From Physocladia obscura (Eukaryota; Chytridiomycota; Chytridiomycetes; Chytridiales; Chytriomycetaceae): a stretch of 30,004 bases of DNA. The stretch spans positions 1,869 to 31,872 of the forward strand of contig JADGJH010000089.1 of the NCBI GenBank assembly GCA_027596945.1, given 5' to 3'. The notes under the pieces are model-generated. The model searched no databases. It was not told the origin of the DNA and saw only the letters and a program-made list of their open reading frames with translations. Position numbers and translations under genes: made by a program. This document shows positions 23,801-30,004 of the stretch, one piece after another. How positions within the stretch are numbered: the first letter of the stretch is position 1; every line of letters begins with the position of its first letter.

Positions 23801-26800
23801 ACCGGGTTTGGATCGTATATCGTCGAAAATGTGGTCGCCAATTTTTTGTCGTCAACAAACCTGGCAAAATTAGTTCATCATCAACAAAGATTTGGAATTT
23901 TGTGGCGACTAAGTGAAAATAACCAAAAAAAGGCTGGAATTACCTTTTCGAGACCGTTGTTCCTAGTTCTGGATTCTTTAAGGAGCTCTAATCCATCAAT
24001 TCGAAGAAACAGTGAAGCATGGCTGAAAACCTACGTCAAGTCGTATTCCAGGTTTTATTTTCCTTTTTTTTGCGTTTTATTTTTTGAAATAATAGTTCTA
24101 AAAAATAAATGTCGAAGGATTATTGAGCCAATTTTGGCAACTTTGCTGCATCGAGATATTCGAGTTTTCACCGAAACTACTCTTGTTGCAGAACGCGAAG
24201 AAATCATTTACTTTTACAAACGCGAGTTCAACATGGGCCAAGTTCTATACTCACTAGAGATGCTTAGTTTACTCATATCTGGATATATGCCATTATTACA
24301 AAATTTATGGACGGAAATGTTGTCAGATTCTAATTTTTTGGAAGCAGGAGACTGGCTTGAAGAAGGTGAAAACGATTCTTCAATGTAGTTGTAGAACAGC
24401 GTATAGTTAACTTTAAACTAGAGTTTCTTGTGTCAGCAAATTCTCTTACTTACTCTGAATTCTTGATATATATTTGCTTGCGGTATGTTAAAATCATGGA
24501 GAAAAAAATACGAGTTTTGATTTTGACGCATACTCATAATTTAAGGTTTGTCCGGACTGAAATACAAAAAAATCCCGAATCTAAGAACGAAAAACTCCAA
24601 GCCGTCAATGTATCCATTCAGTCGCAAGCTTGCGAATTTATCGCAAAGTACTTGGCCTTTGCTGAATTAGACAACAAGATTAGTTCAACAATCGCCAAAG
24701 TTTTTATTAAGAAAACAAGTTATTCGATATTTATGTCTGAACTTGATCTTCAGCCACGTCTCCTTCTTGTTTTAAGCTCCTTAAATCAAAATCAAGAGCG
24801 AGCATGGCGCACGCAAAGAAATCGATCAAACAGGCGAAGTTCTCTGACTGTCAGCGATGCATTAGACAGCTTAATTATTTCAGGACGAGAAGTATTTGGC
24901 CTCTCCTCTTCAGATTCGAAGTTTGATGAGCATTTCGAATCTTTTGGTCAGTACTGTTTTGGTGAAATTATTATTGTTTTAAATATGAAGCACAGAAACA
25001 ATTGAAGGATTTCTTTCGATGATTCTTGAAGCACTATCTCAGGCAACAAACCGACACGTTTTACAATCTTGGGTTGATTTTATTGTTTTGATGCTTCCGC
25101 GAATTCATATATCATTCAAAACATTTCTCAGGCCGATAATTTCCGAAATATGCGAAGAAATAACTCAGCAACACCAAGAAATTCACTTGTATGTTCAAAC
25201 ATGCAAGCAAAATTTTCAAAGTCAAAATGAATTGGGGGCGCCAGATAATACAGTTGTAATTTTTGTATCTGGGCTCGACAAGATTATTGAGTTTTGTTTG
25301 GAAAATGATACAAACTGGAATAGTGCTGTTTTGGAAAAGACGAAAAGTGGATCCAATTTGTGGGATTATAACATTACTGGGATTGTGACGAGTGTTTTTT
25401 CTGATTCTCCGTCGACAGACCAACCTCAAAACGAGCCTCAAAATTCGAAGTTGGTTTAAAATTTCAAACTGGCACCAATTTGCTAAATATTTTTTTCTAC
25501 TTTTAGAGATGCAATTCTCGAACTACTTCCAAGCATTTTAAATAACTTACGATTGTTATTTTCTCTCTTCAGGGCGGATCCGTTCATGGATAATTTTTCT
25601 TTGAATGATACCAAACCGAAGGTTGTCAATATTCAAGCGATATCTGGAGCTTCGTTAGAGTTCTTGTGTCTGACTGTTCAAAAGAATTTACGGCGCATAC
25701 TTGGACACATTTTCACCAAATATCCCGCGCATTTAATTGCCATGGCCGTTGAAATTTGGTTTGCATGCGAAGTTGGAGTGCCGGAAACTCAATGGGAAGA
25801 TGATCGCGAAAACATATTATCTATGCTTCATTTGGTTGAAGAATGTTCTCCTAAAATTGTGTTGTCGACGATTTTAGATGGGTTGAAAGTGAGATTTGCA
25901 TTTGCCACAAATAGCAACTCTTCAAAAGACCGATCAAATCCATTCTATTTGCACTCCAAAAATATGTATGTTCTTCTCTTTCCTTTTTATATTCTTTTTT
26001 TGAAGTGTAAACACAGATCAGATTCCCATCTACTCTTTTTTTTCGAAAAATACGTTCGATTTTGTGTTGGTCCTGAAGCTATGTATGAGGTTTGGCCAAG
26101 TCTTCATGGCTACGCAAAAGAGTGCTTTTCTCATGCGAATATACTGGGAGCAAATTATTTCTTACCTAATATGCTGCGGTAAGCGAACTATTATGAAAAA
26201 TTTTCTGGCTGACAAATCTGCAAACGGTTTATTGCGTAGTGTGGTTACAGCTGCGATAGAAAAACTGACCATGACGCGACATTTCGATGATAAACGCATG
26301 CGCTTTCACATGGATGAAATTTATCAAAAATTATTGGACCTCACAATTTCTGCATTGGCAAAATCTGCGGAAACTCAAGTGATGACGCCAACAGCAACGG
26401 CATTCAATAGTTTTGAAGCAAATAATATGCCAGGATTGAAACTTTTACCAAAGCCTTCGAATGCGTTAATATCTGGTGACATTCTTTTATACATCGCCTC
26501 CACAGTTGTGCCGCAATTGAGAAAGCTTTTACTGGATCAAGAAAAGATCATTGCAGTCTTGAACAATATAGTATATTATATTATTGGACCAAATCTAAAA
26601 ATCACCCCAAATTTGTTGGGAGGCAAATTCAGGCCTTCTCTAGAAACGTTGAATGCAATATCAAAACTTCCTTTTGCTGTTAAAACGTGGAAAAAGGAAA
26701 TTTGGGAGGCTTTTCTTGATAGTCGATTTTTTGATATGCATTTAGAGCCGTTTCGATTATGGAAAGGAATCATGAACAGTTTGGCGAATGCAGATAAGGA

Positions 26801-27813
26801 TCTTCGAATTTCAGAAATTGCAGGTTTTCTGTTTTCACATTTCTATCATTTGTTGCTCAGCCATTTATTGTTTTCAATCGTAACAGCAAAAATTTCTTCG
26901 GGTCCATCTTCAAGTATATTTATTTCAAGAGAACAAGAACAGCTACAGCGAATGTATTTCATAAGGCGCCTATCTTTCTTACTGTGGTGTGGCACTGTCG
27001 ATCAATATCTTGCACAACTTCCTTTGATCCAAGAAAAACTAGTGGAAATTCTAAAGACACCATCTGGCCCTATGCACATTGAAGCATATCTTTGCTTAAG
27101 GGTGTTAATGTGTCGAATGACGGCACATCATTTGTCAAATCTTTGGCCAATGGTTTTGACGGAGCTGGTGAGAAATAATATTCACATCATTGCTTCTAAA
27201 ATAATACCAGATTCAAATATTTGGAGTGTATTTGCGTAATCAGGGTACTAACGATGATTTGCAAGTCTTTCTTGCATGTTGCAAGCTACTAGAACTGCTG
27301 CTTCTTCTCGGAACAGAAGAATTCCAATGGTATTTATTTTTAACTGCTTATAAATTTATCCAATTCCAATTAGGCATCAGTGGATTTTTATTCGGGAAAC
27401 TTTTGATTTGAATGATGAATCTGACTTTGAAGAAAGCTCAACATCTCTTGCGGATAAATTGAGTGTAAATTGGGGAATTGCAACTGATAGAGTAAGTTTC
27501 AATTTTTTTTTCCCCTTTTTTTCTAATTTCCTGAACTTATTAACAGAAATCTATTCATGGAGATATTTCTTCAATGCGTACTTTTACAAACCAACCCTTG
27601 AGACGCCCTTTGCTGACAATGCGTACAGTTTTGGATAAGCGACAACTGGCGCCTTTTATTGCAACCTTGAGCCATCACACTTACTCTTCAATTTTTGCTG
27701 GTTCAAAACCTGATATTACTTTCATTGAAGAGGTGTTGGAAGCAGATTTAATGGCTGTTGATTCTGCGATTTCTTCCCCAATTGCAGGTCATTCTGCTGC
27801 TCTTGTGAAGTGA
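20871..27813 (+). CDS. DOP1: Dop1/DOPEY protein (endosome-to-Golgi recycling scaffold)
   Basis: Dop1 is a very large peripheral protein that works with Mon2 and the flippase Neo1 in Golgi-endosome traffic. Proposed 24 exons give 1890 residues: 20871-20997, 21044-21162, 21248-21394, 21464-21544, 21591-21870, 21917-22049, 22104-22207, 22258-22484, 22529-22639, 22688-22795, 22849-23472, 23517-23642, 23720-24051, 24118-24365, 24422-24482, 24546-24946, 24996-25449, 25507-25965, 26017-26178, 26240-26823, 26887-27167, 27211-27329, 27374-27491, 27547-27813. The N-terminal Dopey domain is unmistakable: NEWADVIGFLSKLLKTLQ, RLAQCLNPALPSGVHQKTLE, LPLWSYGLFPFFQNAAMSVK, LVQRGALELLVVNFP. The C-terminal conserved block has SSSIFISREQEQLQRM, VDQYLAQLPLIQEKLVEIL and FLACCKLLELLLLLGTEEFQ. 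Introns are 43-85 nt. The length fits between yeast (about 1.7 k) and human (about 2.4 k residues). The ATG is only 26 bp after the Rmd1-family stop. Confidence 0.95.
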
Positions 27814-27882: not shown

Positions 27883-30004
27883 ATGGAACGAAGTTCTATG
27901 GGGTTTCTGCTTAGTGGCGATAATACTAAACGAGACGGTAGCATCTCTCTTAGTATCAATGCGTCACCCGACCCAAGCAGTGTGTCAAGCGGGTGAGTCG
28001 TCAAATCTCTGAAAAAAGTTCAGTTTTGATTCAAGAGGCTGAGAGAAGTAACAGCTTTGCCAACGACACGCAGCTATTGCAACAATCGACCGTCTTTGGC
28101 ATCAGTACGAACGCTGCGGATCAAATCCAGCCGCAGTCTCAGCAGCAAACCCAGCAAACACAGCAAACACAGCAGAAGTCGCAAACAATCTGTGTAATCT
28201 GCGATGAGCCGCTGCCGTATCCGCTCGACTCTAGAACAGTCGAAATCAGTTCACTCAAGCCGCGTTTTTTGCGTGAGCTTAAAAAACTGTACCCGTTACG
28301 TCCTCTCCCCCCAAACTATCGAGTGTGCACTAAGGATTTGGCGCAACTAATGCAAAGCCGGATCGAAACTCTACTTGAACAGGACCAAAGAGAATTATCA
28401 CGGTTACAAAACGAAGCCATGAAGAACCTCGGGGAATATGAGCAGCGTGAGCAGAATTGGCAGAAGCAATTTGAACAGGGTTGGACTTTGTCAGAGAAAG
28501 CTGCTGATATTGTTGCACGATTTGGTGGTTCTTGGCGTTTTATCGGCGTTTTGATTGGATTTTTGGCATTTTGGGCTCTTACAAACATCCTACTCAGTCA
28601 ATCCTGGTCGACTGGCTCTGCTTGGGATCCTTATCCGTTCATTTTACTCAATTTGTTTCTTTCTATGATTGCCGCCCTGCAGGCTCCTGTTATTATGATG
28701 TCTCAAAATAGACAAGCGCAACTTGATCGTCTCCAAAGTGACTATGTCTCAACAATTATTTTACGGTCGGAGCATCAAGTGCGCCACGTGAATGCTAAAT
28801 TGGATCATTTGCTGAACGAACAATGGAGAAGGTTGTTAGAAATTCAACAAACGCAAACAGACCTTCTTCAGATGCTCCAATTCCGTCACTACTCTCATAT
28901 TCATCCCGAAGATGCTGCAAATGTTATGAAAACCCCGTCCAAACTTCAGCAATCTGAGCAGACAGAGATTGACGTTTCTTTGTTTACAAACCCGCTTGCG
29001 ACACCAAATCCATTTGGAATTGTTCGGAGCGAGAGTTTTTCTGTCATGGCAACAAGTAATCCAAGTCTTCCGCGACCGACCATCCCTGTTGGAGAAATTC
29101 ACTGGTGTGTTGAAACTCATCCTGATAATCATGTTAAAATGCTGCTCGCGGAATATTTTGGAATCCCACACAATTCTTCTCCATCATCAGAAGAGTTGTT
29201 ATTTGCCCATTGGCACACTGATGGGGACAATTTTATTGGTTTTGTAAGTGACGTTCAAGTTGAAGTGAAGCATTCGTCTCCTGTCGTGCGAAGAATTGTC
29301 TATGATATGACATTTAATGATCCATCTGCAACATTGGATGATATTCTTGCTGGTGAAGGAACAGTTGAACTTAGAAACGATTTTGATGTCAAGTGCATGG
29401 ATTTGGATGGTTGGCTAACATTATTATATTATTATTATTGATAACAATGCGTATAAAAGGGCGGTACTTGCGAGTAGAAATCCATCATAAAGACAAGTCC
29501 CCTGCCGCATTCCCCAACGGAGATCTTCCACCACGATATAAATCTACATTCGCGCATAAGCGAGAAGATAAAATCACCGATTTCTGGAAACAGCGTGTTT
29601 CACGACTCAATTTCACCTATTCTCCACCACATCAAGTCGCAGTTCTCTCACTATCTGATCGACAAATTTGTGAGCGTATGCGCGTTGACTTTTTCCCGGA
29701 AAACACCGTGAATCATGCGAAAGTATACATGCGGCGCTTGGATCTTTCAGTAATAGTATCTGCGGGTGACCAAGGTGTTGATGGTATGCTTTCTTATATG
29801 AAAGAAGTTGTTGGAAAGAGGCCGCTGAGCAAATCTTGGATTCCTGTTGCGTATGCATTATGGTTGGAAAAAAAAAAAAAAAAAAAAAATTCGCTGAAAA
29901 TTAATTACAAAAAAATATAGGCCCGAAAATTATGTTCATGGAAAAAATTTGTTTTCCGAAATTAATGGAAGCGACGGAAAAGATGGAACTGATAATGGCG
30001 AAAT
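27883..30004 (+). CDS. DUF1003 membrane protein with Cys-rich N-domain and long unassigned C-terminal region (3' partial)
   Basis: Exons: 27883-27992, about 28055-29409, 29460-29862, 29921 to the window edge. The first short exon (MERSSMGFLLSGDNTKRDGS) ends at a strong GTGAGT donor; the second acceptor could also be at 28045. After a Q/T-rich linker comes a Cys pair (ICVICDEPLP, Cys83 and Cys86) with RVCTKDLAQLMQSRIETLLE, then the DUF1003 core: ADIVARFGGSWRFIGVLIGF, one membrane helix (residues 198-217), DPYPFILLNLFLSMIAALQA, a second helix (230-252) and MMSQNRQAQLDRL, ending in a coiled coil. This whole order is that of bacterial DUF1003 proteins, whose function is unknown. Residues after about 320 (GEIHWCVETHPDNH, VYDMTFNDPSATLDDILAGE, RYLRVEIHHKDKSP) match nothing I know. 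Both later introns use GTTGG donors. Confidence 0.83.
28143..28183 (+). repeat. Q/T-rich codon repeat in the DUF1003 gene
   Basis: Tandem CAGCAAAC-like units code a QQT-type linker just before the Cys-pair domain. It is a low-complexity spacer not found in the bacterial-style core, and probably length-variable. Confidence 0.6.
29867..29889 (+). repeat. Poly-A tract inside the last visible DUF1003 intron
   Basis: More than 20 consecutive A directly after the GTTGG donor of intron 29863-29920. A similar A run precedes the acceptor of the first visible phosphofructokinase exon (about 81-101). Such homopolymers are prone to length error, but both sit in introns, so frames are not affected. Confidence 0.7.

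Follow-up and report, generated by a model that had tools for sequence, protein, structure and literature searches.

How does a membrane protein of a bacterial type come to sit in a chytrid fungus, and what is the long region attached to its C-terminus? The question is raised by a gene at one end of a 30,004-nucleotide stretch of DNA (the window), bases 1869-31872 of contig JADGJH010000089.1 (C89) in the 21.8 Mb, 1222-contig assembly of Physocladia obscura, a fungus placed in Chytridiales, Chytridiomycota. The gene encodes a membrane part of the DUF1003 family, followed by some 320 residues that make up a C-terminal domain (CTD). DUF1003 is a widespread, mainly bacterial membrane family without known function. 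The eukaryotic DUF1003 copies form a single clade, and the CTD is closely paired with DUF1003 in it. Taken as a whole, the best explanation is a eukaryotic DUF1003 protein, derived from bacteria, that works as an oligomeric membrane unit regulated by its CTD, to which we give a probability of about 0.55. Its identity as a eukaryotic DUF1003 protein and the order of its domains are nearly certain.

Domain order and distribution of the C-terminal domain

The protein begins with a disordered stretch rich in glutamine and threonine (Q/T). A CxxC...C cluster follows, then a long helix, a pair of membrane helices with a short DPYP loop between them, another long helix and the CTD. The features of the gene, all on the forward strand, are as follows.

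27883..27992, + strand: exon 1, residues 1-37, with a codon split at the joint (MERSSMGFLL...SSG)
27993..28054, + strand: intron 1, 62 bases (GTGAGT...ACAG)
28055..29409, + strand: exon 2, a single frame with the Q/T linker, Cys cluster, DUF1003 and first part of the CTD
28128..28187, + strand: Q/T-rich low-complexity linker
28191..28337, + strand: Cys cluster, CxxC...C-x-x-D, a putative metal site
28524..28835, + strand: DUF1003 (PF06210) with two membrane helices and MMSQNRQ, E 2.9e-31
about 28536-28604 and 28635-28703, + strand: membrane helices by hydropathy, helices also in the structural model of the homologue P0002
29094..29862, + strand: CTD up to the end of exon 3, with intron 2 inside it; the last part of the CTD lies outside the window
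29410..29459, + strand: intron 2, 50 bases (GTTGGC...AAAAG)
29460..29862, + strand: exon 3, middle of the CTD
29863..29920, + strand: intron 3, 58 bases with a long A-run (GTTGG...ATATAG)
29921..30004, + strand: start of exon 4, poorly read on C89; a better copy and the gene end lie on contig C615

An earlier, sequence-only reading of this DNA had recognized DUF1003 by its order of motifs, and a HMMER-type profile check bore it out: Pfam DUF1003 (PF06210) scored 108.1 bits (E 2.9e-31), above its cut-off of 27.4, which places the protein in the family. The motifs lie where that reading had put them, with CVIC at 28191-28202, CTKD at 28326-28337, GGSWRF at 28524-28541, WDPYPFILLNL at 28623-28655, MMSQNRQAQ at 28695-28721 and, in the C-terminal region, WCVETHPDN at 29103-29129 and DMTFNDPSATLDD at 29304-29342. 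The hallmark order of DUF1003 is therefore present, GGSW followed by two membrane helices around the DPYP loop and by MMSQNR. The two membrane stretches proposed by that reading were placed by hydropathy at residues 198-220 and 231-253, and the proposed Q/T linker was also seen.

Bacterial DUF1003 proteins of about 230-250 residues (for example P0130, Acinetobacter bouvetii) share with the window protein the CxxC...C start, a helix, GGSW, the two membrane helices, DPYPFILLNL, MMSQNRQ and the helix that follows, at about 40% identity across nearly the whole DUF1003 query. They have neither the CTD nor the Q/T linker, whereas the window protein has both. The N-terminal CxxC...C of the bacterial long form is found in the window protein, in 37 of the 39 eukaryotic proteins long enough to judge (39 of 53), and in 110 of 116 other proteins (116 judgeable of 118, P0075-P0192). 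In and immediately next to the membrane part, across 141 rows, W195, N199, D213, N221, Q231, P233, E261 and D272 are invariant and S225 is kept in 140 (P0001 numbering). Because polar residues are kept within the membrane helices, we suggest that the membrane part has a role beyond anchoring. DUF1003 relatives are also frequent on IMG/VR contigs filed as viral, being encoded at 248 of 260 pattern matches (L087-L166); these copies could be either DNA flanking prophages or genuine phage genes.

Over the CTD there was no Pfam family above its cut-off and no NCBIfam family, and PADLOC gave no family match. A CTD profile was built from nine members, leaving out the Chromera velia protein and the protein P0048, and was run over 192 proteins. 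It matched 52 of them, all within a 53-member eukaryotic family (P0001-P0051, P0073 and P0074), and none of the 139 other DUF1003 proteins, eight of which bear bacterial names, the rest being taken as bacterial. The sole family member without a match, P0038, is a partial model that ends before the domain, and several of the 52 matches are themselves partial (P0045, P0073, P0074 and others). The profile recognized both of the proteins left out, Chromera velia at E 8.6e-55, with the profile's last third unmatched, and P0048 at E 7.4e-33. Of the 625 open frames taken from 80 titled bacterial DUF1003 loci it matched none, and none of the 56 IMG/VR stretches that fit the CTD pattern was confirmed. 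A database search with the CTD only (proteins of about 180-570 residues) returned six proteins. Four carry a precomputed DUF1003 mark; the other two are P0042, a partial model without the DUF1003 part, and P0049, which begins at MMSQNRQ. In a Pfam scan at E 0.05, 50 of 51 members matched DUF1003, and P0042 is the exception in the wider scan. As far as seen in these searches, the CTD appears to accompany DUF1003 wherever the model is uncut. Present in 52 of 53 members, confidently predicted over most of its length and expressible alone, the CTD offers a way into the function of the membrane part.

The absence of a bacterial counterpart to the CTD in these searches, together with the introns, could be taken to mean that DUF1003 and a separate downstream gene are adjacent and have been misjoined. 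However, a single stop-free frame (27954-29441) runs from upstream of DUF1003 to residue 489, well within the CTD, and family members with both parts show the same DUF1003-CTD order. Misjoining is thus extremely improbable.

The whole-protein search returned 72 proteins; about 8000 candidates were scored per protein search, and for DUF1003 the best 120 of 512 matches are covered. Organism names are attached to 45 of the 53 family members found among the matches listed: 44 are chytrid-lineage fungal proteins, from at least 30 named fungi recognized as chytrid lineages, and one is from the alveolate Chromera velia. Chytrid placement was looked up for Physocladia (Chytridiomycota) and Hyaloraphidium (Monoblepharomycota) and made by recognition for the others; no Spizellomyces protein is among the matches listed. 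The eight unnamed members were counted as eukaryotic because they carry the CTD. One source flags P0008 as an unverified, possibly contaminated record. P0048 has 1005 residues and combines DUF1003 with a very diverged CTD rich in low-complexity inserts. Dinochytrium, Phlyctochytrium and Synchytrium each hold two or more family members (P0013/P0015, P0014/P0017/P0020 and P0022/P0027, respectively), and the Dinochytrium copies have consecutive locus numbers on equally long contigs.

Within a known bacterial family, these proteins make up a genuine and well-conserved eukaryotic branch. The literature searched did not describe it, an entry in a supplementary table being possible; DUF1003 was named in 2 of 5.39 million papers, both on streptococci, and COG4420 and PF06210 gave no mentions. 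With its CTD, predicted to fold like nucleoplasmin, this unstudied family is open to direct tests.

Origin of the membrane part

For the DUF1003 trees and the comparison of invariant residues, rows were trimmed at MMSQNR or at a relaxed version of that motif, and 107 of the 120 loci and proteins taken as bacterial and 18 of 21 fusion-type proteins were kept. The larger tree of 159 rows held 34 of the 53 eukaryotic members, with partial and near-duplicate models omitted, and a slower tree of 80 rows held 21. The eukaryotic copies form one clade in both, with support of 99 by the Shimodaira-Hasegawa-like approximate likelihood ratio test (SH-aLRT) in the first and 100/98 in the second. In the 80-row tree the clade occurred in all 200 bootstrap trees counted, from a bootstrap that had not fully settled. 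On the opposite side of the trees lie Pseudomonadota, Bacteroidota, Verrucomicrobiota, Planctomycetota, Thermodesulfobacteriota and other titled bacterial rows. The two trees disagree on which non-eukaryotic rows come nearest, so they point to no particular donor.

A bacterial origin of the membrane part is very likely, and intron gain would follow from it. The simplest account is one acquisition from bacteria, followed by intron gain and fusion, the history that the sequence-only reading had outlined and that the single clade supports. Fusion of the membrane part to the CTD would predate the divergence of today's chytrid lineages. The gene would then be a clean example of a bacterial gene gaining introns and a fusion in an early fungal lineage.

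Two points limit this account. The DUF1003 trees have no outside root, and the fusion is not chytrid-only because Chromera velia and P0048 also have it. P0048 is the first branch among the eukaryotic copies in both DUF1003 trees, but its branch is long. Chromera, also on a long branch, is sister to the fungi in the 159-row tree and falls in an unresolved fork with chytrids in the 80-row tree and in a CTD tree of 46 rows (7 of the 53 members omitted as partial or odd). These positions, and the occurrence of the same fusion in P0048 and in Chromera (less the last third of the profile), would fit DUF1003 and its tail being present in an early eukaryote and lost in most lineages, or a transfer from a chytrid to Chromera. 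Early presence would, however, need very many losses, as all 44 named non-Chromera proteins among the matches listed are chytrid-lineage. We regard these histories as less likely than not and still prefer a single acquisition.

As DUF1003 is mainly bacterial, the assembly might simply be contaminated by bacterial DNA. The same contig bears a match to the eukaryotic DOP1_C family (26145-27176), the gene contains introns, and relatives with the same tail come from at least 30 named chytrid-lineage species, all of which make contamination hardly credible.

Predicted fold of the C-terminal domain and possible function

A sequence search for solved structures with the CTD profile found none. Structure prediction, made on single chains, gave a CTD model that is confident over most of its length, and in a structural aligner nucleoplasmin-type domains ranked best for both models. 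The CTD likely contains a nucleoplasmin-like jelly roll with large insertions, to judge from these models. The predicted jelly roll is like those of plant HDT1/2/4, the N-terminal domain of FKBP43/FKBP53, Drosophila NLP, NPM1 and NPM2, and the alignments cover nearly the whole target. The CTD differs from these domains in being about three times longer, with 8-14% identity in the structural alignments, and in being joined to a membrane protein. No nucleoplasmin family was among the Pfam matches of 51 members at E 0.05, which leaves the CTD outside those families by this measure, and none appeared for five CTD-bearing proteins at E 10, where HMMER filters lose most very weak matches. The sequence-only reading had proposed a possible new domain here. 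That holds for sequence, in that the CTD is unnamed and new to Pfam and NCBIfam, and not for fold, since the predicted fold is probably not new. If the nucleoplasmin-like prediction holds, a membrane protein here makes use of a fold known from histone chaperones; the literature searched contained nothing joining nucleoplasmin with membrane helices, jelly roll and pentamer.

Other candidates fared worse. Peptidylglycine alpha-hydroxylating monooxygenase, the Eph ligand-binding domain and small viral capsids scored below the nucleoplasmin group and had no sequence match, and the monooxygenase was dropped for its lower score. Foldseek's own top rows for the CTD model (insect toxin, calpain, neuropilin and others; E 4e-4 to 1e-2) were attributed to chance, with template modelling (TM) scores of about 0.1-0.2. 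Tc-toxin rows aligned only over long helices, and rows from a viral structure library (phage tail, capsid, unnamed proteins) had mostly low TM-scores. Two rows for solved relatives of the window protein by sequence (E 0.28 and 0.49) were not worth keeping, and a V-ATPase row that the DUF1003 profile gave at E 0.1 was judged to be noise.

The nucleoplasmin fold is known from pentamers and from histone chaperones. The CTD could be a true, very diverged nucleoplasmin-type pentamer that serves only assembly or the binding of basic proteins, with no ligand and no gating. The ranking of both models agrees with this, and some of the titles mention pentamers and histone binding. However, the CTD has no sequence match to nucleoplasmin families. 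Its conserved residues are mostly D, N, R, H, W and G, and its most conserved stretches (HWHtDGDNF, LDDvfsGEG, LRNDFD and NGDLPpRYK) are richer in D, N, R and H than we would expect for an assembly domain. A purely assembling CTD seems unlikely to us.

In the regulated membrane unit that we prefer, the N- and C-terminal ends would both lie in the cytosol. The protein would assemble through the long helix and the CTD into an oligomer, which may be a pentamer. The pair of membrane helices, which hold invariant polar residues, would serve as a small unit for permeation or signalling. By binding a polar ligand or a partner, the CTD would set the state of this membrane part. The probable setting is a stress response. 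The pentamer and the ligand are guesses from the predicted fold and the D/N/R/H-rich motifs. We infer a regulated stress unit because of the invariant polar residues, the fusions of DUF1003 to regulator domains and the papers on streptococci; as a separate claim, the regulated oligomeric unit is tentative. In its most specific form it would be a novel eukaryotic membrane sensor, built on a bacterial two-helix module that a cytosolic ring of nucleoplasmin fold, able to bind a polar ligand, makes pentameric and gates. The sensor would have been gained a single time and retained by many chytrid-lineage fungi and a chromerid alga. This form is improbable.

Cyclic-nucleotide-binding, PAS/GGDEF and MerR-type domains are cytosolic regulators. 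Outside the eukaryotic family, DUF1003 is fused to these and to PDZ-peptidase domains (P0052-P0072). The fusions to PF00027, PAS/GGDEF and MerR-type domains (among P0055-P0065) resemble the window protein in pairing the membrane part with a soluble domain and differ in which domain it is, none of them matching the CTD profile. The cyclic-nucleotide-binding domain PF00027 was absent from the Pfam matches of the window protein and of the family members scanned. By analogy, the CTD may take the place of the cyclic-nucleotide-binding, PAS or MerR-type domains of the bacterial fusions.

In streptococci, one report describes a DUF1003 gene that was repeatedly mutated, including by stop mutations, in laboratory evolution (PMC9163064). 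In a second report, another DUF1003 gene was the most reduced gene in a ciaR mutant, and the authors compare its product to a Lactococcus acid- and multistress-tolerance protein (PMC4839699). Clustering of the 625 open frames at the 80 bacterial loci gave DUF1003 as the largest cluster (59 loci). No non-DUF1003 cluster extended beyond 9 of the 80 loci, and the clustering yielded no functional clue; one of the nine-locus clusters resembles DUF1003 antisense frames and one, by eye, ATP-binding cassette (ABC) transporters.

Exon joints, gene end and neighbouring gene

The DUF1003 gene is annotated as HK100_012425, a partial entry (public model P0001). Spliced as exons 27883-27992, 28055-29409, 29460-29862 and 29921-30004, it gives an open protein of 650 residues, and all three introns foreseen from the sequence (27993-28054, 29410-29459 and 29863-29920) preserve the reading frame. 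We accept the exon joints because homologous proteins read across all three. At joint 1, P0003 has SGSGFAND where the window has SSGFAND, and spans the joint as SGSGFANDDAILQ. The public model opens MRHPTQAVCQA and joins differently; homologues favour the exon at 27883-27992, which starts MERSSMGFLL. DGRYLRVEIHH at joint 2 is present in P0003 and P0004, and ALWPEN at joint 3 in P0002 to P0007. The gene model is qualified by the donor GTTGG, common to introns 2 and 3 (29410-29415 and 29863-29868), which looks unusual, but the homologous proteins leave little choice of joint.

The window and C89 end together, within the gene. A genome search with the Rhizoclosmatium protein P0002 hit three places, two on C89 and one, with the last 86 residues, on C615, and searches of the Physocladia genome found a single DUF1003 family gene. 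C615 reads PENSVPGSNLVSD... and ends at the C-terminus GPAVYIFLCDETRVAFRGYIV. After the A-run, window positions 29890-30004 match C615 in 98 of 115 columns, and 14 of the 17 mismatches are A in the window for C. Upstream of the A-run C615 is the worse copy (L086 1-260), with T for G at 6 of 10 mismatches. The A-run seems to be where both contigs break off, each with one-sided read errors. Because the C615 copy matches with one-sided mismatches, the window's last exon is, on this comparison, real but badly read, and not reliable letter by letter.

Upstream lies the C-terminal part of a DOP1 gene (26145-27813), in which the DOP1_C match has an E of 2.9e-41. A frame at 27544-27813, without a Pfam match, is taken as the last DOP1 exon; lying on the same strand as the DUF1003 gene, it stops 69 bases short of that gene's start codon.
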